64,000 nt of DNA. Origin: a virus. Position 1 is the stretch's first letter, and the number at the start of each line of letters is the position of its first letter. The DNA lies in the IMG/VR virus record IMGVR_UViG_3300024502_000011, positions 1-64,000 of that record; one strand, written 5' to 3'. The translations under genes and the position numbers were made by a program. Below are positions 41,231 to 58,737 of the stretch, piece after piece. The notes beneath the pieces are model-generated. The model saw only the letters and a list, made by a program, of their open reading frames with translations, was not told the origin of the DNA and did not search any database.

Positions 41231-41252
41231 AAAAGGGGCTTAAGCCCCTTTT
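41231..41252. terminator. bidirectional terminator
   Basis: AAAAGGGGCTTAAGCCCCTTTT, a perfect 22-bp palindrome with A and T tracts. It overlaps the 3' end of the first minus-strand gene. Confidence 0.75.
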
Positions 41253-41476
41253 GCCAGCCACCAGTCGCATGATTGTTTGAGTATAGTTTGGGCCTCACCC
41301 AAAACCCAATCACGGTGATCGTCGCTCATCTTATAGTAAGGATCAATCCGGAGATTATCCAGAATCGTTTGAAAAAATTCGGGATTGTTTTCGTTCCCCA
41401 CAATTAAATCAGCATACGCCAGCAAAATTTTGCTGGCGGAGTTGCGGTCATTCAACATCTTCAGTAACTTTTCCAT
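41240..41476 (-). CDS. hypothetical protein, 78 aa
   Basis: EKLLKMLNDRNSASKILLAYADLIVG, ending SCDWWLAKGA; helical. Own promoter: TTGACA, 18 bp, GAGAAT, 5 bp, ATG. Not recognised. Confidence 0.65.
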   Translation of the reverse strand: MEKLLKMLNDRNSASKILLAYADLIVGNENNPEFFQTILDNLRIDPYYKMSDDHRDWVLGEAQTILKQSCDWWLAKGA

Positions 41477-41513
41477 AATTCATTCTCCCATGAAAACGTG
41501 GTTTCTGTCAATG

Positions 41514-41541
41514 AAAAAAAGGGGGTTTCCCCCCTTTTTTT
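41514..41541. terminator. terminator hairpin
   Basis: AAAAAAAGGGGG - TTT - CCCCCTTTTTTT; works on either strand. It ends the gene at 41542. Confidence 0.75.
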
Positions 41542-41748
41542 CTACTCAAACGTGATAACGTTGAAACCCAACGCCTTGAAAATATCGGTCAATTCTTCGA
41601 CCGATTCACCGTCCCATTCCGGCTCAAACTCCGGAAAGTTCCATTCCCCCTCAGCCATCATTTCCTGCAATTCCTGATCCGTAGGACCGGACATTTCCTC
41701 GCAGTTAATCTGCGTGTCGAAATCGTCAAATTCGAAATTGTTGGTCAT
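41542..41748 (-). CDS. acidic protein, 68 aa
   Basis: Strongly acidic (GPTDQELQEMMAEGEWNFPEF, WDGESVEELTDIF), possibly a DNA mimic. The mRNA leader holds GTGTA/TACAC as a hairpin and three AAAAGGA repeats before the ATG. Not recognised. Confidence 0.65.
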   Translation of the reverse strand: MTNNFEFDDFDTQINCEEMSGPTDQELQEMMAEGEWNFPEFEPEWDGESVEELTDIFKALGFNVITFE

Positions 41749-41874
41749 TTTCCTTTTCCTTTTCCTTTTCTGTAGTGGTGTATCCCCTACACCTATAGAT
41801 TACCACACTATCGGACAGAATCAAACGAAAAATGACGGGAAACGATATTTTTTTCGTTTCCCGTCATGACGGGA

Positions 41875-42495
41875 TTAGATCCCGTGGATTCGTTTCCACG
41901 TCACCCAAGTAATAGCTTGAACCTGAGATGCGGACAAACCAACAATTCCCGCTACCATCCGGTATGCGGAAATAATCGCAGAACGTTCCCGTTCTGCGAT
42001 ATGCGGCATTGTCGCTACAGTGTAGCGATAGCCTACCGCAACGCTATAGGCATGAACGTCTACGGTAACCTTATCGTCACCGTTCTTATCACCGTTGCGG
42101 AGGTTATCAGCAAAAGCCGTAACCTTGGGACCGCTCAAAATATGGCGAAACGGTTCGTTCCGTTTGTCTGCTAACAGGATAGCAGCTGCCTTGTCGATGT
42201 TGCGACGATAGCCCGCAACACCGGACACTAACGATAACGGCTTATCGTTAGCGATAGCGTCGGCCAAAATATCAATTCCATTCAAATTTGAAGTCCAACG
42301 GATACCCGGCGATAATGCGGCAGTTGCATCAACTACCGCATCGAACGAAAAGTTAGAAACACGGGCAATAACCCGTAATTGTTCGTGGGCGGCGGTGTAC
42401 CATGCACCCCCGGAGCGTTTTTCTTCCGGCGTCGCCATATTGTAGACGGCGAGGATGTTGGTCATGAAATCGTTGGTCATACGAAAAATGGTCAT
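41875..42495 (-). CDS. HhH-GPD-like phage protein, 206 aa
   Basis: ATAALSPGIRWTSNL, GVAGYRRNIDKAAAIL, ILSGPKVTAFADNL and VTVDVHAYSVAVG recall the helix-hairpin-helix/Asp core of DNA glycosylases; the family is common and uncharacterised in phages. The catalytic Lys is not evident, so activity is doubtful. GC-richer than neighbours. AAAAGGAAAAA precedes the ATG. Confidence 0.6.
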   Translation of the reverse strand: MTIFRMTNDFMTNILAVYNMATPEEKRSGGAWYTAAHEQLRVIARVSNFSFDAVVDATAALSPGIRWTSNLNGIDILADAIANDKPLSLVSGVAGYRRNIDKAAAILLADKRNEPFRHILSGPKVTAFADNLRNGDKNGDDKVTVDVHAYSVAVGYRYTVATMPHIAERERSAIISAYRMVAGIVGLSASQVQAITWVTWKRIHGI

Positions 42496-42567
42496 TTTTT
42501 CCTTTTCTGTTTGGCGCTGGCCTCAACTCTTATAGATTACCATAGGCCAGAACTAAACTGCAATACC

Positions 42568-42663
42568 CTACCACGAAAAAACTACATAAATTCCATAAAT
42601 ACCCCCCATAAGGAAAACGAATGATAGCGCATCCAAAATCATATTGATAACGTTGTTTTTCAT
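42568..42663 (-). CDS. single-span membrane miniprotein, 31 aa
   Basis: MKNNVINMILDALSFVFLMG then GIYGIYVVFSW; one hydrophobic helix. Promoter TTGACA, 18 bp, GAGAAT, 6 bp, ATG. Unknown role. Confidence 0.5.
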   Translation of the reverse strand: MKNNVINMILDALSFVFLMGGIYGIYVVFSW

Positions 42664-42687
42664 ACTGTTATTCTCTCATGAAAAAAT

Positions 42688-42712
42688 GGGGATTGTCAAT
42701 CCCCATTTTCAT
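42688..42712. terminator. terminator hairpin
   Basis: AAAATGGGGATTG - TCA - ATCCCCATTTT at the end of the gene at 42696. Confidence 0.7.
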
Positions 42713-42911
42713 TATTTTCCATATCTTCAATGACTTCAATCATCTCACGGTACAACGGGCAATAGTTCCAGTGACCAACATGATGTCCCAACATCAAATC
42801 GAAATGCTCATATTTTTCACCGTTCCACTCCCAACGGGAATGGATTAAATTATATTCATTCCCGTTGTGATAGACCGTCATGATTTTTTCTTCAATGTAA
42901 TTTTGTTCCAT
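42696..42911 (-). CDS. hypothetical protein, 71 aa
   Basis: MTVYHNGNEYNLIHSRWEWNGEKYEHFDLML with an acidic C-terminus. Promoter TTGACA, 17 bp, TACCAT, 6 bp, ATG gives the start MEQNYIEEK. Not recognised. Confidence 0.65.
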   Translation of the reverse strand: MEQNYIEEKIMTVYHNGNEYNLIHSRWEWNGEKYEHFDLMLGHHVGHWNYCPLYREMIEVIEDMENNENGD

Positions 42912-42984
42912 GAGTCAATGGTATCAAGGTCAGAAAAAAATGTCAAGAAAAAAACAAAAAAAATTTTGGTACTATCGGTCCTGG

Positions 42985-43154: not shown

Positions 43155-43349
43155 TTAATCTTCCCAAACAAACTTCGCAGAATTTAACTTAACTTGCCCC
43201 CATTGGTCAACTTGCCAACTCATTCCGGCCCAATCAAACAACCAATGTTCCCACAAGTTAGACCAACGCATGTTTGCGAGAATAATCTTCGCATCATATG
43301 ATCTGAACTTCTCTTGAATTGAGGCGACAATCTCAGGCGTGGGTGTCAT
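43155..43349 (-). CDS. hypothetical protein, 64 aa
   Basis: TPTPEIVASIQEKFRSYDAKI, then WSNLWEHWLFDWAGMSW; Trp-rich. Promoter TTGACA, 17 bp, TAAGAT, 8 bp, ATG. Not recognised. Confidence 0.6.
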   Translation of the reverse strand: MTPTPEIVASIQEKFRSYDAKIILANMRWSNLWEHWLFDWAGMSWQVDQWGQVKLNSAKFVWED

Positions 43350-43404
43350 ATGTTCCTATCTTAGCACGATGTGTTCAGGTTGTCAACCTGATGTGTTCAA
43401 ATTT

Positions 43405-43513: not shown

Positions 43514-43777
43514 CTACTGCCCCACCTTCTTGCTGATGTGACGGGCGATAATCTTGCCCGTCACCTGATTGCGAACACGCTTCTTATTGCCATTCTCAGC
43601 AACAATCTGGTTGTAGAGGTACATAACAGCCCCAAGATTGGAGTCCACCAGATTGATCGTGGTGTACTTGGACTTGTCCACACCAACTTGAATCTGGTAG
43701 CCAGTGTTGGGGGTGTTCTGAATCGCACCCTTCTCATTCTGGAAGGAAGCGGTCTGGAAGTTGAAGGTCATCTGCAT
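43514..43777 (-). CDS. hypothetical protein, 87 aa
   Basis: FNFQTASFQNEKGAIQNTPN, then LVDSNLGAVMYLYNQIVAENGNKKRV and a basic C-terminus. Ends at a terminator (AAGGTGGGG/CCCCACCTT, 43505-43529). Its mRNA begins with a TCAGG/CCTGA hairpin. Not recognised. Confidence 0.65.
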   Translation of the reverse strand: MQMTFNFQTASFQNEKGAIQNTPNTGYQIQVGVDKSKYTTINLVDSNLGAVMYLYNQIVAENGNKKRVRNQVTGKIIARHISKKVGQ

Positions 43778-43794
43778 TTTCGTTTTTTCCTTTT

Positions 43795-43830
43795 CTATCA
43801 GGCTTGCCCTGACTCTTTTAGTATCTCACA
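43795..43830 (-). promoter_or_regulatory. promoter with 5' hairpin leader
   Basis: On the minus strand: GATACT, AAAAGAG, TCAGG-GCAAG-CCTGA hairpin, AAAAGGA. The same layout with a different hairpin sequence precedes the genes starting at 44781, 45816, 47921, 49661 and 53839. Confidence 0.65.
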
Positions 43831-43879
43831 GGTTCGGTTGCTTGTCAACAGTTTTCAGAACTTTTTTTCTTGGGGGAGG

Positions 43880-44161
43880 TTATTCCTCCCCCATCCCCTC
43901 ATCGCCACCATCCTCATTTTCTACATCACCCACAAACTCAACTCCCGGCCAGTAGAAAACATATCCATAACCCATGTTATCCCATTTCACATTGGTTGGG
44001 ACGTAAACGTTTCTACGTCCCATTTCATACATCACATCCAAAATCTCAGCCATTGTGTCAACCACAATGGCAAGGCAAGATTTGCCACCCATATAACGGC
44101 CAGAATAGCCCCTGCACTCAAAACCACAATCTTCGAGAAATTCCTGCAAATCGCTTTTCAT
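43880..44161 (-). CDS. hypothetical protein, 93 aa
   Basis: LQEFLEDCGFECRGYSGRYMGGKSCLAIVVDTMAEILD; C-terminus very acidic (VENEDGGDEGMGEE). Promoter TTGACA, 17 bp, GAGAAT, 6 bp, ATG. Ends in a GGGGGAGG/CCTCCCCC terminator. Not recognised. Confidence 0.65.
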   Translation of the reverse strand: MKSDLQEFLEDCGFECRGYSGRYMGGKSCLAIVVDTMAEILDVMYEMGRRNVYVPTNVKWDNMGYGYVFYWPGVEFVGDVENEDGGDEGMGEE

Positions 44162-44199
44162 GATTTTATTCTCCCATACTGGAAGGGGTTTGTCAACCC

Positions 44200-44415
44200 C
44201 TAGAACAACTTTTTGTGAAATTTCACAACTTTGGAAATCGCAGACTGCAAAGTTTTGCAGGGAACTAAGGAAATCTTCTCTTCAGAAAACAACATCAGTT
44301 CTTTTTTCTTAGGGTTCCAATCAGCAACCAGTGTGCCATTCAGCAAAAACTCAGTGAAGCAGTAGATGCTGCCACGGTCAAAGGTGTTGATTTCAAGTTT
44401 CTGTTTTTCAACCAT
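44200..44415 (-). CDS. hypothetical protein, 71 aa
   Basis: LEINTFDRGSIYCFTEFLLNG, then KKKELMLFSEEKISLVPCKT. Promoter TTGCCA, 17 bp, GTAATA, 6 bp, ATG; the -35 part lies in the long inverted repeat at 44432. Not recognised. Confidence 0.65.
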   Translation of the reverse strand: MVEKQKLEINTFDRGSIYCFTEFLLNGTLVADWNPKKKELMLFSEEKISLVPCKTLQSAISKVVKFHKKLF

Positions 44416-44431
44416 GATTTATATTACCACG

Positions 44432-44502
44432 ACCCCTCAGAGAATGGCAACAGAAAAATGATGAAAACTAGAAGTTTTTTCTGTTGCCATTCTCTGAGGG
44501 GT
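44432..44502. repeat. 27-bp perfect inverted repeat
   Basis: Arms 44432-44458 and 44476-44502 with a 17-nt loop. The left arm holds the -35 of the gene at 44415. Confidence 0.88.
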
Positions 44503-44562: not shown

Positions 44563-44781
44563 CTATTCCCCGTAGTAGTCGTAAGACTCATACTGCGATT
44601 CATACATCGAATCCAGGTGCTGGTCCTCCAGCTCAAAACTAGGATCTTCAGGATAGTCCTGGAAATCGTCAGAATCATAGATGTCGGCCATTTCAGCCTG
44701 AGCATCTTCCCAGGCTTCATTCCGACCCATTTCTTCCAGGTCGTTTTCGTAGAACTCGTAGGTGTCGTAGTCTTCAAACAT
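44563..44781 (-). CDS. acidic Tyr/Asp-rich protein, 72 aa
   Basis: MFEDYDTYEFYENDLEEMGRN; tail ESQYESYDYYGE. Very acidic, DNA-mimic-like composition. The start at 44781 follows AAAAGGAGAAAACGGA; the upstream in-frame ATG crosses the promoter. Not recognised. Confidence 0.7.
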   Translation of the reverse strand: MFEDYDTYEFYENDLEEMGRNEAWEDAQAEMADIYDSDDFQDYPEDPSFELEDQHLDSMYESQYESYDYYGE

Positions 44782-44896
44782 TCCGTTTTCTCCTTTTGTC
44801 TTGGCTCTTGCCCTGACTCTTTTAGTATCGCACGTTGTAGCAGGGAAGTCAACAACTTTTTTTGTTTTTTTGTGGGGGATTTTCGCCCCCCACACT

Positions 44897-45133
44897 TTAC
44901 TTCACCTGAACCGCAACCTGTTTGATTTCAGCAACATAGACATCGCCCACATCAAACGTTCCATATGTCATTGGAGACTTCACCGCACAGTACCAGCGAG
45001 CGAAGGGGTTTTGCTTTTCCTTTTCCGGAGTCTGATAGGTCTTGAGAACACGCCATTCCCAGGAACCATCAAAACTCTTGAAAATCATATGAGGATTGTC
45101 AATCTTGGCAGTTTTGCCGAATGGATTCTTCAT
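44897..45133 (-). CDS. hypothetical protein, 78 aa
   Basis: NPFGKTAKIDNPHMIFKSFDGSWEWRVLKTYQ, then WYCAVKSPMTYGTFDVGDVYVAEI; a compact beta fold. Promoter TTGACA, 17 bp, GATACT, 6 bp, ATG. Not recognised. Confidence 0.7.
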   Translation of the reverse strand: MKNPFGKTAKIDNPHMIFKSFDGSWEWRVLKTYQTPEKEKQNPFARWYCAVKSPMTYGTFDVGDVYVAEIKQVAVQVK

Positions 45134-45171
45134 ATTGTTAGTATCTCACATTCTGGGGGGTTTGTCAACAG

Positions 45172-45495
45172 TTACCAGTGAAAAAGTCCCCTCTTTTTTT
45201 CACCGTTTGCGTAAACCACTAAAACATCACCATCACCATCACCATCACCAAAAACAACAGGATCACCATAAGTAGACGGGACATCATCGCCAACTTCACC
45301 AGACCATTTGCTGGACCAGCGATCACCGCAACAAGGGCAGTCAACGCCAGAATCACAACCATCGAAGTAAACACCCTCTACTTCTAAAACACGATTGTTC
45401 GCATCTTCGGCGTTTTCAGCCTCAACAACAACGTGTTTTGCTGGTCCGGTGAAATGACCACCTGAATTATTTTGAGAAAAATGGAAGAATTTCAT
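45172..45495 (-). CDS. conserved phage protein, paralogue of 8436-8720, 107 aa
   Basis: MKFFHFSQNNSGG, VVVEAENAEDANNRVLEVEG and ending VVYANGEKKRGLFHW. It has an insert CDSGVDCPCCGDRWSS, a likely zinc site, and a GDGDGDGD stretch, both absent from the other copy. Promoter TTGACA, 17 bp, GAAACT, 6 bp, ATG. Confidence 0.78.
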   Translation of the reverse strand: MKFFHFSQNNSGGHFTGPAKHVVVEAENAEDANNRVLEVEGVYFDGCDSGVDCPCCGDRWSSKWSGEVGDDVPSTYGDPVVFGDGDGDGDVLVVYANGEKKRGLFHW

Positions 45496-45552
45496 ACTTT
45501 TAGTTTCTCACATTCTGGGGGGTTTGTCAACCCCCCACTTGAAGTTTTTTTG

Positions 45553-45816
45553 CTATTCAGCGATTCGGCGTTCAAACACCCCACGTTCCAGAGTGGCAGT
45601 GTCAGAACCATCAGTGTGGAACGTGATGGGGAAGTAGTCTTCACCAATCTGAGCATAAACTTCAGTTTCATTCATACCCAAGTCAATCCAGTCACCAACA
45701 GCACCAGCGTAAGTCTCAGATTCTACAACATTTTCAGGATTGAAATTCCCAGGAAGGTCACCAACCAGGAAACGCTTGATAGGGAGGGTCGAAAACTTAA
45801 CTTTCTTCAGAAACAT
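45553..45816 (-). CDS. hypothetical protein, 87 aa
   Basis: MFLKKVKFSTLPIKRFLVGDL, then ETYAGAVGDWIDLGMNETEVYAQIGEDYFP. Hairpin leader (GGC-AAGA-GCC) and AAAAGGAG before the ATG. Not recognised. Confidence 0.7.
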   Translation of the reverse strand: MFLKKVKFSTLPIKRFLVGDLPGNFNPENVVESETYAGAVGDWIDLGMNETEVYAQIGEDYFPITFHTDGSDTATLERGVFERRIAE

Positions 45817-45856
45817 GGTCTTTTCTCCTTTTGTCCTGGCTCTTGCCCTGACTCTT

Positions 45857-45979
45857 TTACTTTACCACAACCTTTTTCCGGTTGTCAACAGAATTTTTCA
45901 AGTTTTTGTGAAAGTCACAAACGTTCCGTTTGCAGTTGGGGCAGTTCAGAATCGAAAGCATCAGGTGTTGTTTGCTCAT
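45857..45979 (-). CDS. zinc-binding miniprotein, 40 aa
   Basis: MSKQHLMLSILNCPNCKRNV then CDFHKNL: CPNC plus C..H, one zinc site. Promoter TTGACA, about 18 bp, TAAAGT, 6 bp, ATG. Its 3' end contains the TTGACA promoter of the next gene. Confidence 0.55.
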   Translation of the reverse strand: MSKQHLMLSILNCPNCKRNVCDFHKNLKNSVDNRKKVVVK

Positions 45980-45983
45980 GTTT

Positions 45984-46133
45984 TTACTTTACCACAGAAG
46001 TTTTGGGGATGTCAAGAGTTTTTTTCAACTCTTTCGAAAAATCCAGCACAGTCGGAAATGCAATAGAAAACAAAGAAACAACCAGGACAATCAACAGAAT
46101 GTCAAACATCGAATCACTGATAAGCCGTTTCAT
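45984..46133 (-). CDS. membrane miniprotein, 49 aa
   Basis: MKRLISDSMFDILLIVLVVS LFSIAF is one membrane span; the tail is FSKELKKTLDIPK. Promoter TTGACA, 17 bp, GATGAT, 6 bp, ATG. The next promoter lies inside its 3' coding end. Confidence 0.6.
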   Translation of the reverse strand: MKRLISDSMFDILLIVLVVSLFSIAFPTVLDFSKELKKTLDIPKTSVVK

Positions 46134-46168
46134 GAATCCATCATCTCACAGTCTGGGGAATTTGTCAA

Positions 46169-46279
46169 CTACTTAATTGCACAATCTGCTTTCATGGCGA
46201 AAAAAATAATAATCACACCGAAAAGATAACCCGCCATGAAAAACGTAAGATATTTGAGTCGAAGTTCTTTTCTTGTCAT
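46169..46279 (-). CDS. membrane miniprotein, 36 aa
   Basis: MTRKELRLKYLTFFMAGYLF GVIIIFFAMK, then ADCAIK; one span with a basic N-terminus. Promoter TTGACA, 17 bp, GATGAT, 6 bp, ATG, nearly identical in layout to the previous gene. Confidence 0.6.
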   Translation of the reverse strand: MTRKELRLKYLTFFMAGYLFGVIIIFFAMKADCAIK

Positions 46280-46310
46280 GAATCCATCATCTCACAGTCT
46301 GAGGGGTTTG

Positions 46311-46526
46311 TCAACCCCAAGAACCAAGTTTTTTCTTTTTTGTTGCGGCAACCAGAACAGCTTCAGAAATCATTAAAAAAACTTCAGAATCAATCACAGT
46401 CTGGATTTCCCGCAACTTGTAACCCTTTTGTTGCCAATTGATTACAATGGGTTTCAATGCTTCATACACTTCATCCGCAAGTTGTTGACCTTCAAGAGTT
46501 TTTGCTTCATACTCATTGTAAAGCAT
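46311..46526 (-). CDS. hypothetical protein, 71 aa
   Basis: LYNEYEAKTLEGQQLADEVYEALKPIVINWQQKGYKLREIQ; helical. Coupled to the upstream gene by TAATG, with GGAGGAAG in that gene's last codons as ribosome site. Not recognised. Confidence 0.7.
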   Translation of the reverse strand: MLYNEYEAKTLEGQQLADEVYEALKPIVINWQQKGYKLREIQTVIDSEVFLMISEAVLVAATKKKKLGSWG

Positions 46527-46663
46527 TATTCTTCCTCCTTCTTGTGCTTGCGCTTGCGATAATTCTTGCTTTTGGTTTTCTTGTCCTGGATAATAGATCC
46601 GGTCTTTACACCAGACCGGATCTTAGCAGGATTAAACTTGGGCAGCTTGATGTGTTCAACCAT
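46526..46663 (-). CDS. basic miniprotein, 45 aa
   Basis: MVEHIKLPKFNPAKIRSGVK, then a Lys/Arg-rich KKTKSKNYRKRKHKKEEE tail; probably binds nucleic acid. Promoter TTGACA, 17 bp, GATAAT, 6 bp, ATG. Stop overlaps the next start. Confidence 0.65.
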   Translation of the reverse strand: MVEHIKLPKFNPAKIRSGVKTGSIIQDKKTKSKNYRKRKHKKEEE

Positions 46664-46698
46664 ACTGTTATTATCCCATGTGTTCTTCACAATGTCAA

Positions 46699-46910: not shown

Positions 46911-47030
46911 CTAGTTAAAAGGTGATTTGTATTTCTTACCACATTCAAGGCAACTGTAATGACCATTAACAGGTCTGGTCATCTTTGTGTGGAATTCCCG
47001 ACAAAACCAAACACTAAGCTTTTGCAGCAT
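46911..47030 (-). CDS. miniprotein with CxxC, 39 aa
   Basis: LQKLSVWFCREFHTKM, then GHYSCLECGKKYKSPF, a half zinc finger. AAGGATAATC precedes the ATG, which lies inside the end of the preceding gene. Confidence 0.5.
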   Translation of the reverse strand: MLQKLSVWFCREFHTKMTRPVNGHYSCLECGKKYKSPFN

Positions 47031-47205
47031 TTTGATTATCCTTTAACGTAGACAAAACCAAAATCTGCATCGTCACAAAGTCGATAATAGCCTGAGCGTT
47101 CAGGTAATCATCGTCGTTTTCATCGAACCTGCTAATAATCAGGTTCATCAGACCGATTACCTTCATGTTTCCGCTAATCAGATCGTCAATCACATCGTTC
47201 ATCAT
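47014..47205 (-). CDS. hypothetical protein, 63 aa
   Basis: MMNDVIDDLISGNMKVIGLM, then ENDDDYLNAQAIIDFVTMQI; acidic helical. A longer frame from 47244 runs through TTGACA, 17 bp, GATAAT, so the start is put at 47205, 6 bp past the -10 box. Not recognised. Confidence 0.65.
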   Translation of the reverse strand: MMNDVIDDLISGNMKVIGLMNLIISRFDENDDDYLNAQAIIDFVTMQILVLSTLKDNQNAAKA

Positions 47206-47243
47206 GATATTATTATCGCACCTTTCTTTTCGGTTGTCAAGCA

Positions 47244-47654: not shown

Positions 47655-47921
47655 CTAACCCTTCTTACCGATGCCGAAAGACTCAATTGCAGAAGTCTGC
47701 ACATACCAAGTCTTCGTGGGAAGGTTCTGAGCGTCCTTGTACTTCGAATCGCTGAACGCACCAGTCTCATAAACAATCTTGGCATCGTCCAGAAGGACAC
47801 AGGTATCGTTCACTCCAGTGAGCGTACCAGCATAGATGTAGTTCGCACAGAACAACATCACGTGCTCACCAAGAAGGGCCACAAGACCTTCACCCTGAAC
47901 CTCAGTCACAATCTTCTTCAT
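47655..47921 (-). CDS. conserved phage protein, Sm-like beta fold, 88 aa
   Basis: EGLVALLGEHVMLFCANYIYAGTLTGVNDTCVLLDDAKIVYETG resembles an Sm-type barrel strand order seen in phage proteins of unknown function; then TKTWYVQTSAIESFG. Leader hairpin GTCAGA-GGAAA-TCTGAC and AAAAGGAG before the ATG. Confidence 0.65.
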   Translation of the reverse strand: MKKIVTEVQGEGLVALLGEHVMLFCANYIYAGTLTGVNDTCVLLDDAKIVYETGAFSDSKYKDAQNLPTKTWYVQTSAIESFGIGKKG

Positions 47922-48053
47922 AATCAGTTTTCTCCTTTTTTCTTGTCAGATTTCCTCTGACTCTTTTAGTATCTCACACCCTGTGTGATTTGTCAAGTTT
48001 TTTGTTTTTTGTTTTTCTAGCCTCCAACTACCTGCTAGAAATTTTAAGGGCAG

Positions 48054-48090: not shown

Positions 48091-48156
48091 TTAGTCGTCC
48101 CAGTCATACTCCTGGTAGTCGTCATGATCTTTGTAGTCGTTCCAGTTAATAAGCAT
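48091..48156 (-). CDS. acidic 21-aa peptide
   Basis: MLINWNDYKDHDDYQEYDWD D; starts inside the end of the preceding gene. Composition resembles the tail of the protein at 44563. Tentative. Confidence 0.4.
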   Translation of the reverse strand: MLINWNDYKDHDDYQEYDWDD

Positions 48157-48496
48157 AGATATTTGCCTTTCCGTTTTCGATGAAGAGGTCACACCAGGCG
48201 GAAGTTTCAATTTTCTTTCCGGTGAGGACATTGATGAAGTAATCTGCCTCATAGGGATTGTAACGAACCGTGTTCCTTTTCAGGAAAAGCTCTTGGTCTT
48301 TTTGCCAATCACCTTCAACAAAGGCATGAACATTTTTCTTTTTTTCACGAAGAACACGTTCCCGTCCAGACTTGGAAACAGTGAACTTGGCATTTTTCAG
48401 GATGATGGTGTCGGTGTGGGCAATAACCTTGCGGGTTTTTTTGTCCATGACAGAGAAAACTTTCTTGTGAAGGTTGAAGTAGACTTTAACTCTCAT
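48146..48496 (-). CDS. hypothetical protein, 116 aa
   Basis: MRVKVYFNLHKKVFSVMDKKTRKVIAHTDTIILKNAKFTVSKSGRERVL, then TVRYNPYEADYFINVLTGK. The family pattern (NLHKK.FS..D..T.KV..H.D.I.L) occurs widely in phages, without known function. Promoter TTGACA, 17 bp, GAGAAT, 6 bp, ATG. Confidence 0.72.
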   Translation of the reverse strand: MRVKVYFNLHKKVFSVMDKKTRKVIAHTDTIILKNAKFTVSKSGRERVLREKKKNVHAFVEGDWQKDQELFLKRNTVRYNPYEADYFINVLTGKKIETSAWCDLFIENGKANIYAY

Positions 48497-48534
48497 GTTT
48501 TTATTCTCTCACATTCTGATCAGAATGTCAAGGT

Positions 48535-48729
48535 TTATTTTGACTCAGACCTAGACCCAGACCCAGACGCAGACCAAGACCCAGACCAAGACCCAGACCC
48601 AGACCAAGACACAGACCAAGACCCAGACTCAGACCTAGACCAAGACCTAGACCCAGACCAAGACGCAAACTGAGACTCAGACCCAGACCTAGACCAAATA
48701 TTTCTTTTGTAGATTGATTTCTTGGTCAT
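48535..48729 (-). CDS. X-Ser repeat protein 3, 64 aa
   Basis: MTKKSIYKRNIWSRSGSESQ, then SWSGSRSWSRSESGSWS-type repeats and a SRSESK end. Promoter TTGACA, then GAGAAT and 6 bp to the ATG, copying the promoter of the previous gene almost base for base. Confidence 0.65.
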   Translation of the reverse strand: MTKKSIYKRNIWSRSGSESQFASWSGSRSWSRSESGSWSVSWSGSGSWSGSWSASGSGSRSESK

Positions 48730-48788
48730 GTTTTTATTCTCTCACATTCTAGGTGAAATGTCAAGGGGGAATTTCTTCCCCCTGCAAA

Positions 48789-49250
48789 CTACCAGGATGC
48801 TTGGTAGTAATAGGTCGTTCGACCATCAACCCATTCATCCTTGATTTCCTGGAAAAGTTTGATGGCACTTTCTAGGTCGTTCCAGTACCACTCATCAATT
48901 TGAATGGAACCAAAGAAAAACCCAGAAACAGGAGGAAACATTTCAAGAGCAATATCTTCTCTCTTAGAGATCAGGACTTCTTTCATGGTTAAAAGAAGAT
49001 TGTCAACATTTTCCTCATAGAAAATAATTTCTTGACATTCATCCCTACCATCAGCAAGCTGCACAAACCAGTTGTGGAGTGCATTGAACTTGCGGAAATA
49101 ACCAAGTTCCTCAGTCACATAGGTGACTTTATCCTTCTTGATGTGGGTAGGTTGTCCGTTGTTGGTCACAACAACTTCATACTTGTTTTCCTTGTCGAAA
49201 GACCAATTCTGAATGTAGCTCTTGCGGTTGATGTATTGATCAAGTCCCAT
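48789..49250 (-). CDS. conserved phage protein of the MGLD family, 153 aa
   Basis: MGLDQYINRKSYIQNWSFD, ELGYFRKFNALHNWFVQLADG and FGSIQIDEWYWNDLESAIKLF: an uncharacterised family (MGLDxYL...) frequent in large phages. Promoter TTGACA, 17 bp, TAAGAT, 6 bp, ATG. Confidence 0.78.
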   Translation of the reverse strand: MGLDQYINRKSYIQNWSFDKENKYEVVVTNNGQPTHIKKDKVTYVTEELGYFRKFNALHNWFVQLADGRDECQEIIFYEENVDNLLLTMKEVLISKREDIALEMFPPVSGFFFGSIQIDEWYWNDLESAIKLFQEIKDEWVDGRTTYYYQASW

Positions 49251-49294
49251 GATTAAATCTTATCACCATTCAGGATGTTTGTCAAGAAGAATTT

Positions 49295-49942: not shown

Positions 49943-49950
49943 GTTTTCCT

Positions 49951-50160: not shown

Positions 50161-50162
50161 GA

Positions 50163-50372: not shown

Positions 50373-50403
50373 GAAACTATATTAGCACCTTTCTGTGTGT
50401 TTG

Positions 50404-50571: not shown

Positions 50572-50602
50572 GATTATATCATACCACAGGCTGATGTGTT
50601 CG

Positions 50603-51011: not shown

Positions 51012-52013
51012 TTAACGGGCCACCTTGAAACAAGTGGATTTCGCAACTTTCACGAAATCTTCATCAGACTTCGCAAACTTCAGAATTTTCGCCAACTTCA
51101 ACACCATGCGAAGCGACAATTCCCGCAGCTTCTTGTGGTTGTCCTCCACAAACTGCATCAACGTCTGCTGCTGGTTTTCTTCCAGTCCCAGAGTGTGAAG
51201 CATATCGGTGTTCTGAACCACGTCCTTGATTCGGATCAGGAACTCACGGGTATTTCGCAAATTCAAATCCAAGTAGAACGAACGGGAAATCAGTGCCTGA
51301 TAGTGAGGTGACATTTTGTTGCCCTGCTGGATCATGGCATCAAAATCCCGATTGGTGACGAAAATCACAGAACCACGAAATTCAAACGTGGAAGGAATTT
51401 CATCGCCAGCATCATCTTCCCACTTCTTTTCCGTTTTCCAGGAAATCATGCGGCGTTTGGTGCTATCCAAAGCAGCTTTCCAGATGTTCAGACCAACTTC
51501 ATCATCGAAAACAGAATCAGCGTCATCAATCAGCAAAACACTGTTTTCATGACGATTTTCCCACAACATCCGGAAAATGCCAGTAGGACGAACAAAGCCC
51601 TTAACAGGAGTGTAGTTAATCTTCTCATCAAGGAAAGCATTCTCCAACATCATTTCGATGTTGTAGGTCTTGCCGATGCCAGGATTGCCGGAAACAATCA
51701 TCGACGTGACCTTGCCTTCAATAACAGCTTCCACCATGCGATCCATCGAAGAGAAACCATCACGCTGACGCTCCAGAATTTCCTCGTCAGTTTCCACAAC
51801 AAGAGGAACAACTTCACCAGGAGCTTCAGCAACACCATTAACATTTCGCAGCACGTTCAGATCGAAGATGCCACGAGAAATCTTACCAAGAGTCCAAAAC
51901 TTAACAGGAATGCGAACATTGAAAATTTCAGCTTCCTGCTTAATAGTCTTAGCACGAAGAATGGTGCCGCCGTGCTTTTCAGTCATCTGGTCAACGAAGT
52001 TCGTGATGTTCAT
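51012..52013 (-). CDS. AAA+ ATPase, 333 aa
   Basis: Walker A VSGNPGIGKTYNIEMML (about residues 109-125), Walker B SVLLIDDADSVFDDEV, sensor 1 VIFVTNRDFD, and a following arginine-rich SRSFYLDLNLRN. The first 90 residues are a separate N-domain with RIPVKFWTLGKISRG. MoxR- or clamp-loader-like folds are possible; no specific role can be named. Promoter TTGACA, 17 bp, GATACT, 6 bp, ATG. Confidence 0.82.
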   Translation of the reverse strand: MNITNFVDQMTEKHGGTILRAKTIKQEAEIFNVRIPVKFWTLGKISRGIFDLNVLRNVNGVAEAPGEVVPLVVETDEEILERQRDGFSSMDRMVEAVIEGKVTSMIVSGNPGIGKTYNIEMMLENAFLDEKINYTPVKGFVRPTGIFRMLWENRHENSVLLIDDADSVFDDEVGLNIWKAALDSTKRRMISWKTEKKWEDDAGDEIPSTFEFRGSVIFVTNRDFDAMIQQGNKMSPHYQALISRSFYLDLNLRNTREFLIRIKDVVQNTDMLHTLGLEENQQQTLMQFVEDNHKKLRELSLRMVLKLAKILKFAKSDEDFVKVAKSTCFKVAR

Positions 52014-52048
52014 ATTGTTAGTATCTCACAGTTTGGTCAGGTTGTCAA

Positions 52049-52714
52049 CTAGCCAATCTGAATAAATTCAGATTTTTTGTTTCGTGCTTTGCCTTTGGCT
52101 TTCAATCCAACAATCACGCCTTTGGCATCCAAGAAGCGAAGATCAGTTTCGTCGCCATTTACCACAGGATAGCCCCAATGAGTTTTGGGCAACTTGTCGA
52201 AAACAACAGCGACATTAACACCATGCTTCAACGCTTCCAAGCACTTCTCCATATTATCACCACTGAAAGAATAAGTCAAGTGGTAATTTTCAGAAACACG
52301 CTCCCAAGGGCGATCCAGTTTAGTGTAATCATAGAACTGGACATTAGGACGTGCAGTGTGCAATGCCTTAGCCAACCAAGGCAGATCAGAAGTTCCATTC
52401 GGACGAAAAACAGGAACCAGATTAGATTTTACCGCAGCAGCACAAGCTTTGTCAAGTTCTTTCAAAGCCTGGGCAATAAATTTTTCACGATTTTCAAACA
52501 ACTTCTTGGTCTTGTTGATGCGTCCATTCTGGACATTAGAGAATGCACCCATGCCAGAAGTGTTCAGGCAGAATGCCAAACATTCTTTAGAAGCACCAGC
52601 ACAGACCTGATGACCAGACAAATCACCAGGAGCCAGATAAATGATTCCGGTCTGATATCCAAGCTTCTGACCCTTGACCGTTTTTGCGTTTGCGTCGATG
52701 TTCCAGATCGTCAT
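52049..52714 (-). CDS. GP88-family phage protein, 221 aa
   Basis: NAKTVKGQKLGYQTGIIYLAPGDLSGHQVCAGASKECLAFCLNTSG, then NGRINKTKKLFENREKF, DLPWLAKALHTARPNVQFYDYTK. This matches the phage Gene product 88 family, which has conserved cysteines (C..G.SK.C...C) perhaps holding a metal or cluster. Activity unknown. Start at 52714 (MTIWNID) follows TTGACA, 18 bp, TATACT; the upstream in-frame ATG lies in the promoter. Confidence 0.78.
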   Translation of the reverse strand: MTIWNIDANAKTVKGQKLGYQTGIIYLAPGDLSGHQVCAGASKECLAFCLNTSGMGAFSNVQNGRINKTKKLFENREKFIAQALKELDKACAAAVKSNLVPVFRPNGTSDLPWLAKALHTARPNVQFYDYTKLDRPWERVSENYHLTYSFSGDNMEKCLEALKHGVNVAVVFDKLPKTHWGYPVVNGDETDLRFLDAKGVIVGLKAKGKARNKKSEFIQIG

Positions 52715-52755
52715 ATGAAACCAGTATAGCAAACTGAATATCAGACTGTCAACAA

Positions 52756-52996: not shown

Positions 52997-53185
52997 CTAC
53001 CGGATCATTGTTTCAACCAGTTTTCTTCCTTTATAGAAAAAAAGTTTTTCCCAATCATGTTCTGATCTTAACCATAAACATTTAAGAAAGAAAATGAAAT
53101 TTTCTACATCTCCTTCATTATGAAAATTGGAATATTTAAATTTAATCACTTCATTAGGAAATTGAACTTTCAATGTGATGTACAT
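52997..53185 (-). CDS. hypothetical protein, 62 aa
   Basis: MYITLKVQFPNEVIKFKYSN, FIFFLKCLWLRSEHDWEKLFFY. Promoter TTGACA, 17 bp, TATAAT, 6 bp, ATG. Not recognised. Confidence 0.62.
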   Translation of the reverse strand: MYITLKVQFPNEVIKFKYSNFHNEGDVENFIFFLKCLWLRSEHDWEKLFFYKGRKLVETMIR

Positions 53186-53220
53186 GTTTTGATTATATCA
53201 GTCCAAGAATAGGTTGTCAA

Positions 53221-53304
53221 CTATTTTTTAACAAAATAATTCCAGTTTAATCTTAAAATTTGTTTCTTTAGTAAAGAATTTTCTTTTTTAACTGATAGTG
53301 TCAT
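53221..53304 (-). CDS. 27-aa basic peptide
   Basis: MTLSVKKENSLLKKQILRLN WNYFVKK. TATACT 6 bp before the ATG with TTGACA upstream (short spacer, about 15 bp). Its TAG abuts the TTGACA of the next gene. Tentative. Confidence 0.42.
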   Translation of the reverse strand: MTLSVKKENSLLKKQILRLNWNYFVKK

Positions 53305-53349
53305 GTGTTCAGTATACCATATCCAGGATTTTGTCAAAATTAATTTTTA

Positions 53350-53638: not shown

Positions 53639-53839
53639 CTAGCCCTGGACCAGCATCTGCTTAACAGAAAAACCCATAACTTCCTCAATATTCGGAGTAG
53701 TTACCATGTCTTCCAGAGTTTCATCGGTGAATTCACCAATCTTTAGCGTTTCTCGAACACATTCATTGTAGGAATCAGCAATAACCAGCGGATTTTCGGT
53801 CTGAATCTCATTGTCGAAAGAGCAAAACTTAACGTTCAT
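53639..53839 (-). CDS. hypothetical protein, 66 aa
   Basis: MNVKFCSFDNEIQTENPLVI, then SYNECVRETLKIGEFTDETLEDMV; acidic. Promoter TTGACA, 17 bp, TATACT, then a GTGTTC/GAACAC hairpin leader and GAGGATAATT before the ATG. Not recognised. Confidence 0.65.
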   Translation of the reverse strand: MNVKFCSFDNEIQTENPLVIADSYNECVRETLKIGEFTDETLEDMVTTPNIEEVMGFSVKQMLVQG

Positions 53840-54208
53840 TATGTAATTATCCTCAGTTTTTGATTTTTTGTAGCTTCTGTGTGTTCGGAACACATCGTCT
53901 ACTCTTTTAGTATAGCAAAGTCATGTGTTCATGTCAAGTGTTGGCGAAAAAAAGTTGGAAAAAAAATTTTAATATGAAAAAATTTTCAGAAAAAATGGCG
54001 CAGCAGTTAAAGTACCCACAACTTTTCAACCATTTTCACAACTTCCCAACTATTTTCACAAATGTGTCATTTTTGACACATTGTGTCTTTTTTTCCACAT
54101 AAATAGATACCCAAACAAAACAACACCCCACCATTTCTATCGACTATTAGAGATGGGTCACTATTTATTCTACTTTTTTATCCTGTCGAAATACCCTGTC
54201 ATTCTATC
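53840..54208. other. intergenic stretch, no gene seen
   Basis: The right part of the 53639 gene's leader and promoter occupies 53840-53940. Beyond it: repeated CCATTTTCACAACT / CTATTTTCACAA strings, a hairpin AATGTGTCA - TTT - TGACACATT at about 54062-54084, and AT-rich filler. No ORF over 30 codons with a start signal. Confidence 0.5.
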
Positions 54209-55914: not shown

Positions 55915-56124
55915 TTATAGTCCATTAAGTAGTTTCTTGTATTCTTCTTTAAATGTTTCATTTTGCCAAATTTCATTAGCAATGAAAAATGCATCTTCAA
56001 TTGGAGCAGTTTCAACAAGATTTACATGGTTGTCTGTCATGCAACAATATGTGTATTCTTGTGCTGCTTTAGCTGCAAGAAATGTTGTAGCGTAATTAAT
56101 AATGAATTTTTCTTTTTCTGTCAT
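55915..56124 (-). CDS. hypothetical protein, 69 aa
   Basis: MTEKEKFIINYATTFLAAKA AQEYTYCCMT, ending FKEEYKKLLNGL; helical. Promoter TTGACA, 18 bp, TATAAT, 6 bp, ATG fixes the start at 56124. Not recognised. Confidence 0.65.
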   Translation of the reverse strand: MTEKEKFIINYATTFLAAKAAQEYTYCCMTDNHVNLVETAPIEDAFFIANEIWQNETFKEEYKKLLNGL

Positions 56125-56131
56125 ATAATTA

Positions 56132-56551
56132 TTATAACACTTCCCAACCTTCATTGTCAAGAGTGTAGAAAACATTTTTAATTTCAAATTCAACAATTGC
56201 TCTCATGCAGCCAGGACAAGGTTTTGACATTCCATAAATCATTTTGTTCGTTTTCACGTCAGTTTTTGCCCTGCACACAAACAAAGAAACTTTATTGAAA
56301 TCTTCTACATCCAAATAGCGTAACGCATTTTTAATTGCTGCAATTTCAGCATGAAGGAAAATAGATAAATCTTTATTAGTTGCATATTTAGCCTGTAAAG
56401 GAGATGATTTATTTGAATTTACACCAACAGAAATAATCTTGTTTTTGTGGACAATTGCAGCAGCAATTTTAGCACCAGCAATCTTGGGCGTTGCAATAGC
56501 AACTTCTTTCAAGAGAGAAAAAACTTTAATGATTTTCTGTTCCGACTTCAT
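56132..56551 (-). CDS. deoxycytidylate/cytidine deaminase family
   Basis: HAEIAAI and GMSKPCPGCMRAIVE give the zinc site (H-A-E and PCxxC), with VGVNSNKSSPLQAKYA upstream. 139 aa. Probably dCMP to dUMP, feeding ThyX; it differs from long T4 Cd (193 aa) and could be a free-base or nucleoside deaminase. Promoter (GTGACA), 17 bp, TACAAT, 6 bp, ATG. Confidence 0.82.
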   Translation of the reverse strand: MKSEQKIIKVFSLLKEVAIATPKIAGAKIAAAIVHKNKIISVGVNSNKSSPLQAKYATNKDLSIFLHAEIAAIKNALRYLDVEDFNKVSLFVCRAKTDVKTNKMIYGMSKPCPGCMRAIVEFEIKNVFYTLDNEGWEVL

Positions 56552-56563
56552 ACTTTTATTGTA

Positions 56564-56791
56564 TCACAAATATTTTTGTTTGTCACTAGTGATTTTCGAC
56601 CAAGCCATTGATGAAAAACCTGAATAGGAATTTGATGTTAAATTATTTACTTCTGACTTTCTTTTTCCATATCGACCGGAATATGAATAATTTTGTCCAA
56701 TTTTTTCGTATCTTAGATTAACACCACTAGAACTTTTACGCTTAGTTTGAAAATCTTTGTAAAAATATTTTTTAGTTTTTGAATACATCAT
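56564..56791 (-). CDS. basic Ser/Tyr-rich protein, 75 aa
   Basis: MMYSKTKKYFYKDFQTKRKS SSGVNLRYEK, YSYSGRYGKRKSEVNN. Four-base overlap with 56788-57018. Probably disordered and nucleic-acid binding. Not recognised. Confidence 0.55.
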   Translation of the reverse strand: MMYSKTKKYFYKDFQTKRKSSSGVNLRYEKIGQNYSYSGRYGKRKSEVNNLTSNSYSGFSSMAWSKITSDKQKYL

Positions 56792-57018
56792 AATTTTAAA
56801 ACCTGTTCATCATTAACATCCCAATCAGCAAAATAATAATTATTATCATCTAACCAGTCAAAAGAAACATAATTAAATGGTAAATCTTCACATTCACTTG
56901 CTTTTGAATAATCATACTTGTGATTGTTGATAAAATTCTTAACAGCGTCAAAATTTGTAATTGTGAACTTTCTCTCTGTGAGAAGTTCCGTGTTTTTGAA
57001 AAATTTAACTGTTAACAT
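56788..57018 (-). CDS. hypothetical protein, 76 aa
   Basis: MLTVKFFKNTELLTERKFTI TNFDAVKNFIN, acidic C-terminus (WDVNDEQVLKL). Promoter TTGACA, 17 bp, TATACT, 6 bp, ATG. Not recognised. Confidence 0.65.
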   Translation of the reverse strand: MLTVKFFKNTELLTERKFTITNFDAVKNFINNHKYDYSKASECEDLPFNYVSFDWLDDNNYYFADWDVNDEQVLKL

Positions 57019-57053
57019 AATATCAGTATATCACAAAAATATAAGTTTGTCAA

Positions 57054-57425
57054 CTATTCATCAATAAATTCTTGACAGGAAACCATGACCATATTTAGTT
57101 CACAAAAGCACTCTGAAATTTCTGGTGTTACCAACCCCTCAATAATATATACATCATCATTTTTTTCAATATCATATGTTGAAGGAATACCAGTGCAATA
57201 ATAGTCCATATAATCTTCTTTATAGTTAAAAAGACTATTTCTAATTTCAGCTACAACATTACCAGCAGTTCTCCAGGAAACTGAGAAATCCTGATTCTTG
57301 TAATCCCATACAGTATTACAAAGTGCTGCATAAAAATTCTGTGCAAAATTATAATCGTCAAACTTGTGAGCAAAAGATGAATTTTTTACATCTTCAATAA
57401 AACTTAAAATTGTGTCGTGGTTCAT
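57054..57425 (-). CDS. hypothetical protein, 123 aa
   Basis: HDTILSFIEDVKNSSFAHKFDDYNFAQNFYAALCNTVWDY, then VSWRTAGNVVAEIRN and CFCELNMVMVSCQEF. A widespread uncharacterised phage pattern (FAALCN..W). ATGA overlap with the preceding gene. Confidence 0.68.
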   Translation of the reverse strand: MNHDTILSFIEDVKNSSFAHKFDDYNFAQNFYAALCNTVWDYKNQDFSVSWRTAGNVVAEIRNSLFNYKEDYMDYYCTGIPSTYDIEKNDDVYIIEGLVTPEISECFCELNMVMVSCQEFIDE

Positions 57426-57592
57426 TGTTTAATCCTACTCATGTAATAATTATTTGATCTTGATAGTACCATACAATCTTCTCCAGAAGAAGATATAAAT
57501 TTTCCTTCAGGTGTGCGTGAAGTTTTTCTTGAATCTGTACCAGATTTTGATTTAGTAAAATGAAGTATATTTTTAGGTTTTGATCGTTTCAT
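57422..57592 (-). CDS. basic Ser-rich protein, 56 aa
   Basis: MKRSKPKNILHFTKSKSGTD, SRKTSRTPEGKFISSSGED. Starts right at the stop of 57593-57799 and overlaps the next gene by 4 bp. Not recognised. Confidence 0.58.
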   Translation of the reverse strand: MKRSKPKNILHFTKSKSGTDSRKTSRTPEGKFISSSGEDCMVLSRSNNYYMSRIKQ

Positions 57593-57799
57593 TTAAATCT
57601 CCACTGGAATTAATTCTTCCTCAAGTATCCAACAAAATTGTAGATTAAAATCATCACGAAGACAATAAAAATTTTCTGACTTTTCTGTACCTGGAATTTG
57701 TTTTGTTTTTACAACAATGTAAACGCTATGAGGATTCATCAGCATTGTACTTGCTACTTTAGGAATTACTTTTACTTTGTCTGCGATTCTGTATTTCAT
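57593..57799 (-). CDS. hypothetical protein, 68 aa
   Basis: MKYRIADKVKVIPKVASTML MNPHSVYIVVKTKQ; SH3-like small beta barrel. Promoter TTGACA, 17 bp, TACAAT, 6 bp, ATG. Not recognised. Confidence 0.65.
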   Translation of the reverse strand: MKYRIADKVKVIPKVASTMLMNPHSVYIVVKTKQIPGTEKSENFYCLRDDFNLQFCWILEEELIPVEI

Positions 57800-57801
57800 A
57801 C

Positions 57802-58737
57802 TTACATTGTAGCAGAATCAGAAAGCTTTGTCAAGCTCTCTTCATACATTTTTTGATAAGCAAACAAAGCTTTTTCCTTAGACTTGAGTTCAAGATCAAT
57901 GTCAAGAGGCATTTCATAGGTGTTCATGATAGATGTTGCATAATCAGAATGCGCCCGTGGATTGCAGGAAATACTTTCATGCAAAGCTTTAGATTCGCTG
58001 TAATGGAATAGTGGCTTAGTCTCACCCCATGTAGCATAAGAAAGATGAAATGCAAGAGATTCAGACAAATTATCTTGATGAAAACTATGGTGGAAATAGT
58101 CAAATGTGATTGGAGTATGAATATAAGAAAAAATATGCTTGAACAACTGATTAACAGAAAATGCAGAAGCTTTGTCATCATTCTCAACAACAAGACGCTT
58201 CTTGGTCTTTTCGTTAAGACGATAAAAATTAGTAATGAAGTTGTCGATAACTTTCTGAGAAAAATTCATACCAACATGGATGTTGAGGCAGTGATAATGA
58301 TTGGCAGGAAAACCCATCAACTCAAAAACTTCGTTGTGATGATGAAGATCATGAATGGAATTGTCAACAACATTCTGCTTGTCAGAACCTAGCTTGACAA
58401 AATGATCTGGATGTGCAGTTACACGAATACCAGCACGTTTAGCAATATCACCAGCAAAACGAAGATTGTAAGAAATTTCAGCAAAATCAGGAAGATCTTC
58501 TAGCTTGTACTTGGAGTTCCAAGGAAATAGATCGGAAGACAAACGAAACACCTTGATGTTGTTGCGTTGATTCCAAAGCATGATCTGGATAAGATCAAGA
58601 GTATTCTTGTATGCAAGCTCAGATGCATAGGCAATACCACGCTCATTAAACGTAGCTTCTCGCATGGTGCGATTGGTAGTAATACCTTTGTCGGATAGTT
58701 CCAGATTAATGCAGCAGTAACCAAATTGAGTGTTCAT
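57802..58737 (-). CDS. uvdE: UV damage endonuclease (UvdE/UvsE)
   Basis: Cuts DNA 5' to UV lesions, starting excision repair. FGYCCINLELSDKG at the start, FRLSSDLFPW, RVTAHPDHFV, LNIHVGM, LVVENDDKA and FDYFHHSFH carry the His/Asp/Glu metal ligands of the TIM-barrel family. 311 aa. Unlike T4 DenV, which is unrelated. Promoter TTGACA, 17 bp, TATTAT, 6 bp, ATG. Confidence 0.92.
   Translation of the reverse strand: MNTQFGYCCINLELSDKGITTNRTMREATFNERGIAYASELAYKNTLDLIQIMLWNQRNNIKVFRLSSDLFPWNSKYKLEDLPDFAEISYNLRFAGDIAKRAGIRVTAHPDHFVKLGSDKQNVVDNSIHDLHHHNEVFELMGFPANHYHCLNIHVGMNFSQKVIDNFITNFYRLNEKTKKRLVVENDDKASAFSVNQLFKHIFSYIHTPITFDYFHHSFHQDNLSESLAFHLSYATWGETKPLFHYSESKALHESISCNPRAHSDYATSIMNTYEMPLDIDLELKSKEKALFAYQKMYEESLTKLSDSATM

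Follow-up and report, generated by a model that had tools for sequence, protein, structure and literature searches.

The 64,000-base stretch analysed here (the window) comprises positions 1-64000 of a virus contig 124,014 bases long, IMG/VR record IMGVR_UViG_3300024502_000011, and its minus strand carries a block of small genes (41240-58737) in which sigma-70-like promoters run almost directly into ATG start codons (Table 1). The contig is T4-type: the DNA polymerase gp43 at 19866-22361 (phrog_262, E 1.3e-292), whose best named matches are Synechococcus T4-like phages (47% identity), adjoins a UvsX-like recombinase (phrog_97, E 1e-84), and gp43 beside such a recombinase is a defining T4-type layout. 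Further T4-type genes encode ribonucleotide reductase, RNA ligase/tail-fibre attachment protein and RNase H. Near-identical contigs carry the IMG sample numbers 3300024507, 3300028073 and 3300026459; a more diverged relative, IMGVR_UViG_3300010354_000099 (hereafter strain B), was the only strain compared. Judging from its position, promoters and small hypervariable genes, we infer that the block is the early region of this phage.

All 17 starts named in the preliminary description (15 minus, 2 plus) have the claimed arrangement of TTGACA, 17 bp, a -10-like hexamer, 6 bp and ATG. Nineteen of the window's 41 minus-strand TTGACA hexamers are followed by an ATG exactly 35 nt from their first T; no other distance from 18 to 57 has more than 4, and distance 17 has 5. 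The plus strand gives 2 of 26. Over 124,000 contig bases, 26 of 88 promoters defined blind to ATG (TTGACN, 16-18 bp, -10) had ATG at +6 after the -10 box, against a mean of 1.77 and a maximum of 5 in 60 dinucleotide shuffles; at 41001-59000 the same held for 21 of 40 sigma-70-like promoters, against a mean of 0.21 and a maximum of 3 in 1000 shuffles, a tighter spacing than in shuffled sequence. Start codons at +6 on the minus strand are ATG in 22 cases versus GTG, TTG or CTG in 2, and many -10 boxes in 41.5-48.8 kb, and also the one at 52048, start with G (GATACT, GAGAAT, GATGAT, GATAAT). Six base pairs is the commonest spacing, not the exact rule first described, as ATG lies at +5 to +8 in 35 of the 88 promoters. 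Nor is the trait genome-wide: of the contig's 23 exact TTGACA-35-ATG sites, 19 fall in one region, 40-60 kb of the minus strand, so that the trait forms one block with a few outliers at 5943, 19866 and 66023 (plus) and 65001 (minus).

We give a probability of about 0.8 to the reading that most promoter-proximal genes of the block are leaderless, expressed from sigma-70 promoters, and exchanged at promoter-ATG seams; the promoter sequences suggest that host sigma-70 RNA polymerase is likely to make the leaderless messenger RNA (mRNA). A -10 box ending 6 bp before ATG puts the usual sigma-70 start point at the A, and a pyrimidine-purine pair is the usual transcription initiator step. C or T directly precedes ATG in all 26 of the +6 sites, compared with 57 of 116 other mechanically listed open reading frames (ORFs) of at least 100 amino acids (aa), which fits transcription starting at the A of ATG. 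The -10 box occupies the usual Shine-Dalgarno (SD) position at these starts, and in 22 of the 26 sites no in-frame ATG, GTG or TTG precedes the start before a stop. Protein families begin at or near the point where the genes do: residue 1 of 45495 aligns with position 1 of DUF7296, residue 1 of 5943 with position 2 of phrog_505 and residue 2 of 50160 with position 5 of phrog_1352, and the N-termini of genes with a family found also match homologues in other phages. Between strain B and the window, with promoter elements taken at fixed offsets from the ATG (including a few starts not at 35), changes affect 0 of 138 covered positions in the -35, 7 of 396 in the spacer, 4 of 144 in the -10 and 3 of 144 in the discriminator. 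Codon positions 1, 2 and 3 carry 32, 21 and 52 changes, a third-position excess that supports coding; 23 of the position 1 and 2 changes come from the repeat-rich gene 48729, perhaps through misaligned repeats. Geometry, the pyrimidine at -1, the -10 box in the SD place, ATG starts and family N-termini are all consistent with the leaderless part of the preliminary description; its genome-wide scope is not supported. In the mechanism that we propose, host RNA polymerase would start at the A wherever a -10 box ends 6 bp before ATG with a pyrimidine at -1, and ribosomes would recognise the 5'-terminal AUG, making a phage initiation factor unneeded.

Comparison with strain B revealed differences that make promoter plus ATG look like an exchange module. 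Strain B is without the gene 45172-45495, its promoter of 45495 being joined to the gene of 45133; it has a further 48729-type copy behind the promoter of 48496 and an extra cassette at the promoter of 50160; and behind the 57799 promoter it carries a 230-aa RlaP-family gene whose ATG takes up the same position, while the displaced gene comes next and lacks that promoter. The seams examined between window and strain B fall on promoter/ATG blocks (45169/45491, 48493/48766, 50157/50195, 57794/57800); gene shuffling, which the early promoter plus stem-loop (PeSL) cassettes of T4-like phages are held to mediate, is seen in this one strain comparison. Since the AUG follows the promoter with nothing in between, joining any ORF to a promoter copy at the ATG would suffice for immediate expression, and recombination between similar promoter copies could therefore add, remove or swap genes at the seam. 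Some promoters may also be fused to an upstream terminator or hairpin, resembling PeSLs: a stem at 58804-58779 with its T-run runs into TTGACA 58772, and a GGGGG-AAA-CCCCC stem with its T-run into TTGACA 41511. Hairpins spanning the -35 reach -12 kcal/mol or below at 44196, 45530, 46314 and 57834, and most of the 28 promoters folded (a hand list slightly different from the 28 starts of Table 1, with two mis-set starts, 53300 and 42624) have none so strong. Separately, members of a family of small minus-strand genes consisting mostly of a hexamer repeat (GGTCTN, coding strand) lie at 47252-47586, 48542-48695 and 50405-50957, and their copies differ between window and strain B.

Table 1. Hand-chosen starts of the block (28 leaderless or near-leaderless, 6 leadered) and two plus-strand starts, with start classes as predicted; the weakest listed starts are 44415 (TTGCCA), 53304 (15-bp spacer, 27 aa) and 42663 (31 aa)
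Predicted class	Span	Strand	Promoter	ATG	Protein (aa)	Remarks
Terminator-promoter-ATG cassette	41240..41511	-	TTGACA 41511	41476	78	GGGGG-AAA-CCCCC stem and T-run immediately upstream (41533-41513)
Promoter within hairpin	42568..42699	-	TTGACA 42699	42663	31	GGGGATTGACAATCCCC hairpin and T-run
Leaderless	42696..42946	-	TTGACA 42946	42911	71	
Near-leaderless	43155..43386	-	TTGACA 43386	43349	64	-10 to ATG 8 bp
Leadered	43514..43848	-	TTGACA 43848	43777	87	5' hairpin, AAGGA
Leaderless	43880..44196	-	TTGACA 44196	44161	93	Promoter in GGGG/CCCC hairpin
Weaker candidate	44200..44450	-	TTGCCA 44450	44415	71	
Leadered	44563..44852	-	TTGACT 44852	44781	72	Hairpin, AAAGGAG
Leaderless	44897..45168	-	TTGACA 45168	45133	78	
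Leaderless	45172..45530	-	TTGACA 45530	45495	107	DUF7296; missing in strain B, seam in promoter
Leadered	45553..45888	-	45888	45816	87	Hairpin, AAAGGAG
Leaderless	45857..46015	-	TTGACA 46015	45980-45979	40	18-bp spacer
Leaderless	45984..46168	-		46133	49	
Leaderless	46169..46314	-	TTGACA 46314	46279	36	Promoter in GGGG/CCCC hairpin
Leaderless	46526..46698	-		46663	45	
Leaderless	47014..47240	-		47205	63	
Leadered	47655..47996	-	TTGACA 47996	47921	88	5' hairpin, AAAAGGAG
Leaderless	48146..48531	-		48496	116	L5 gp82 family
Leaderless	48535..48764	-		48729	64	Repeat-rich family member; extra copy in strain B after 48496 promoter
Leaderless	48789..49285	-		49250	153	
Leadered	49793..49989	-	49989	49942	49	Short leader with GAGGAAAA
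Leaderless	49951..50195	-		50160	69	phrog_1352; extra cassette at promoter in strain B
Leaderless	50163..50407	-		50372	69	
Leaderless	50404..50606	-	TTGACG 50606	50571	55	
Leaderless	51012..52048	-		52013	333	phrog_1250, T4 nrdC.10-like
Near-leaderless	52049..52752	-	TTGACA 52752	52714	221	GP88 family; -10 to ATG 8 bp
Leaderless	52997..53220	-	TTGACA 53220	53185	62	TATAAT
Weaker candidate	53221..53337	-	TTGACA 53337	53304	27	15-bp spacer, TATACT, 6 bp
Leadered	53639..53937	-	53937	53839	66	Hairpin leader
Leaderless	55915..56160	-	TTGACA 56160	56124	69	18-bp spacer, TATAAT, 6 bp
Leaderless	56132..56586	-	GTGACA 56586	56551	139	dCMP deaminase family
Leaderless	56788..57053	-		57018	76	
Leaderless	57593..57834	-		57799	68	Strain B: 230-aa RlaP-family gene from this ATG position
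Leaderless	57802..58772	-		58737	311	Endonuclease (phrog_8420); terminator-like stem 58804-58779 immediately upstream
Leaderless	5908..6866	+		5943	307	Polynucleotide kinase
Leaderless	19831..22361	+		19866	831	T4-type DNA polymerase gp43

We further compared the window contig with other phages and found that comparable arrays occur in other uncultured phage contigs, those recognised being the ones among the matches listed and hence a lower bound. In a scan of gene starts for -35 and -10, a peak at 6 bp was seen in the window contig (18/177) and in the contigs G001 (12/181), G010 (15/175) and G016 (20/276), with 4/201 in G004. The positive control, Thermus phage phiYS40, had a -10 alone at distance 6 in 19 of 169 starts (other distances, at most 10) and was weak once a -35 was included (5); T4 had 0 of 255 gene starts with both elements at distance 4-7, and in Syn9 and S-SM2 the counts were highest where the -10 lay about 18-26 bp from ATG. 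Strict promoters had ATG at +6 in 22/42 cases in the window contig, 18/35 in G001, 13/32 in G010, 30/127 in G016, 11/13 in L368, 8/18 in L387, 5/7 in L126, 6/40 in G004 and 2/7 in L210; the references gave 0/4 (T4), 1/22 (Syn9), 3/27 (S-SM2, none of the three with a 35-aa ORF) and 6/34 (phiYS40). G004 is weak, a looser definition giving 10 of 124 at +6 against a shuffle maximum of 7. C or T precedes ATG in all strict sites of nine uncultured sequences, several array contigs having been found by patterns that already required this. A T4-type polymerase was found in G001 and G010, with no match in G016, G008 (L368) or G009 (L387); G008 (79 kb) and G009 (43 kb) may be fragments. The strict sigma-70-like promoters of G016 (L467-L474; 149.7 kb), including those with ATG at +6, are spread genome-wide, and a search of the named-phage collection with its 576-aa ORF gave no match.

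The array was also considered as a general T4-like property, which we rejected: in 153 pooled loci, fetched as relatives of the polymerase or the endonuclease and excluding near-identical contigs, TTGACA-to-ATG distances do not peak at 35 (42 at 35; 56 at 34, 44 at 36), and T4, Syn9, S-SM2 and the OM43 phage Melnitz have no array. Leaderlessness does not track gene family. Of the 80 endonuclease loci, the upstream listings covered all but L277 and L285, hence 78 (L217, L232 and L272 without ATG near the expected start), and of the 77 polymerase loci not near-identical to the window they covered 49 (L044 without such an ATG). A relative of endonuclease 58737 (L210, 71% identical protein) keeps TTGACA-17-TACGAT-6-ATG with a different spacer. 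Three sets of loci count against the trait being private: the endonuclease loci L246, L249 and L250 have TTGACG-17-TATAAT-8-ATG, the polymerase gene of L030 has TTGACA-17-TATAGT-6-ATG, and the polymerase loci L018, L024, L028, L031, L036 and L054 have TTGACA..TATAAT 9 bp before ATG. Inspected by eye, six homologues of 45495 and 48496 from phages of Streptomyces, Mycobacterium, Geobacillus, Puniceispirillum, Vibrio and Roseobacter were without the promoter-ATG fusion, most having an SD-like stretch. Three sites of L182 (5932, 6882 and 7173) read TTGACA-17-TACAAT/TATAAT-6-ATGAGTTGA, a putatively leaderless ATG whose reading frame meets a stop after two codons. Counts of the late-promoter motif TATAAATA are small; on the minus strand of G001, ATG lies 5-9 bp downstream of it in 6 of 16 motifs, and the late genes of G001 might be leaderless too.

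Several observations weigh against the leaderless, gene-exchanging reading. The transcript 5' ends are placed at start codons from sequence, 4 of the 26 sites have an alternative in-frame start upstream, and several ORFs are tiny (27-49 aa). Changed codons between strain B and the window comprise 37 synonymous and 55 non-synonymous ones, giving no sign of strong purifying selection on the leaderless genes. At looser promoters the C or T at -1 is incomplete (21/22 in G001, 8/10 in G004), and beyond the near relative the geometry is lost in most of the more distant homologues of endonuclease 58737 listed, whose upstream regions differ, often carrying GAGG or AGG ahead of the ATG. The support for cassette exchange is one strain comparison with five seams, the fifth (52731/53303) being untidy. 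Exact scans of genome contigs with the phage tRNA-Lys, full and trimmed, as a pointer to the host gave 0 stretches each.

The most serious competing explanation, possible but rather doubtful in our judgement, is that the spacing was inherited and not selected, one promoter-ATG unit having been copied by recombination with the 6 bp as a relic. The 22 spacers form 9 similarity clusters, one of 11 and one of 4, and some adjacent promoters are nearly identical with strain B seams inside them; copied promoters do explain part of the uniformity, which is a further point against our reading. However, each of the other seven clusters holds one promoter, and these keep the spacing although their spacers are unlike; L210 retains it with a different spacer, the arrays of G001, G010 and G016 share it, and C or T stands at -1 in every +6 site. 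Selection on spacing, as the preliminary description had it, is likely, with descent behind part of the uniformity. It is improbable that the mRNAs are not leaderless at all, with transcription starting elsewhere or translation at a downstream codon and the spacing incidental: the inferred start sites and the four alternative in-frame starts leave room for this, but family profiles and homologues align from or near residue 1 in genes with a family, the -35 is unchanged at 138 of 138 covered positions between strains, and the peak at 6 is that of phiYS40, reported to make leaderless mRNAs.

A smaller class of genes in the block carries SD leaders, most with a 5' hairpin. Four leadered promoters (43848, 44852, 45888, 47996) have similar leaders, with a foldable small 5' hairpin and AAGGA or AAAGGAG before ATG; the leader of 53937 is longer, with a hairpin, and that of 49989 is short, with GAGGAAAA. 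As these SD-leadered genes stand in the same block, the host should read SD sites too. Initiator transfer RNAs (tRNAs) are marked by an unpaired 1:72 end and three G-C pairs in the anticodon stem. Both tRNA-Met(CAT) genes of the phage (52-125, 3103-3184) have a paired first acceptor position (1:72), and the one at 52-125 is without the three G-C pairs, so the suggested phage initiator tRNA was rejected; for altered ribosomes we found no evidence, ordinary AAGGAG-type leaders coexisting in the block. We therefore regard it as very improbable that the phage adapts the translation machinery, by its own initiator tRNA or a modified ribosome, to favour leaderless mRNAs, even with 22 tRNAs predicted in the window, a permuted transfer-messenger RNA (tmRNA) further along the contig, and initiation factor (IF2/IF3) levels reported to shift with phiYS40 (PMC3594737). 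Chance in AT-rich DNA, where ATG is frequent at such base composition, has practically no probability given 21 observed sites against a shuffle maximum of 3, and backward-pattern controls of 1 and 0 against 23 and 18 (window contig and G001).

A search for the RegB nuclease, based on the idea that leaderless mRNAs evade GGAG cutting, gave no match, but the control search matched nothing either, leaving absence unproven. Region 52-8842 of the window holds a cluster of 20 predicted tRNA genes among small genes, some of the tRNAs lying close after sigma-70-like promoters (e.g., 505 and 4627, plus strand). The tmRNA is phage-encoded, permuted and two-piece, at contig 69221-69606 (L001:5221-5606; RF04321 120.8 bits, RF01850 99.8 bits), and ARAGORN predicts one in G004 too. 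A T4-like phage with a two-piece tmRNA is known (PMC9004378, where the term 'leaderless' occurs only within a reference). As a pointer to the host the permuted form is a weak hint.

Base composition sets the leaderless genes apart in three T4-type contigs, where G+C at third codon positions (GC3) was 0.358 vs 0.219 in other genes (25 and 159 genes), 0.633 vs 0.342 (14 and 173) and 0.678 vs 0.308 (15 and 167); the Mann-Whitney P values on GC, in the same order, were 0.0014, 9.7e-5 and 2.8e-6, which are generous as neighbouring genes are not independent. No GC difference was found in G016 (GC3 0.472 vs 0.448, P = 0.77). The leaderless blocks are also G+C islands, about 10-20 points above most of the genome (40-52 kb; G001, 130-146 kb; G010, 80-90 kb). 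Our guess is that this richness reflects codon usage resembling that of the host, in genes that are translated ahead of the appearance of the phage's own tRNAs; their recent arrival from other phages would account for it as well.

The leaderless principle is known, and what is new is the setting and architecture. Tentatively, and at less than even odds, promoter-ATG arrays may form a recurrent platform of their own for early genes in large uncultured phages, of T4 type and otherwise. Loss of the leader would make each promoter a universal landing pad, where one recombination at the ATG is enough to express any ORF, and the composition of T4-type islands would follow the host, with early genes needing host tRNAs before phage tRNAs. 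If our reading is true, leaderless mRNAs carry much of the early programme in part of the T4 superfamily. The start-codon annotation of numerous small phage genes would then change, and such genes could be found in uncultured phages by a simple rule (-10, 6 bp, pyrimidine, ATG). The reading would also offer a mechanism for the rapid turnover of phage early genes, one that collections of strains could test, and a source of natural leaderless parts for expression work in the laboratory.

Through sigma-70, T4 early promoters drive many small genes at the start of infection, and the block likewise has sigma-70 promoters before many small putative early genes, but T4 has 0 of 255 gene starts with -35 and -10 at distance 4-7 compared with 18 of 177 at 6 in the window contig. 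PhiYS40 uses host RNA polymerase and ribosomes. Its middle and late mRNAs are reported to be leaderless, with IF2 up and IF3 down (PMC3594737), and it shares the -10-to-ATG distance of 6 in our gene-start scan; in contrast, the window phage is T4-type and its genes are putatively early, each with a TTGACA-like -35. Leaderless genes of Deinococcus-Thermus are described as having a -10 about 6-7 bp upstream of the ORF, with eGFP reporters in Deinococcus (PMC12340547), a similar distance, but these are cellular genes with a -10 motif, whereas the phage array here combines a strong -35 with a TG that precedes the -10 in most sites. A passing remark notes that phage transcripts are often leaderless (PMC5312081), and in titles and abstract starts, with most subscription journals outside the scope, we found no leaderless early arrays in T4-type phages. 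PeSLs of T4-like phages, repeated elements of early promoter and stem-loop, are held to mediate gene shuffling (PMC4503421; shuffling elements are also treated in PMC4177764). Similarly, some promoters in the window may be joined to stem-loops, and related phages appear to exchange genes at window promoters, but unlike PeSLs as described, the downstream side of the window promoter is fused to the ATG.

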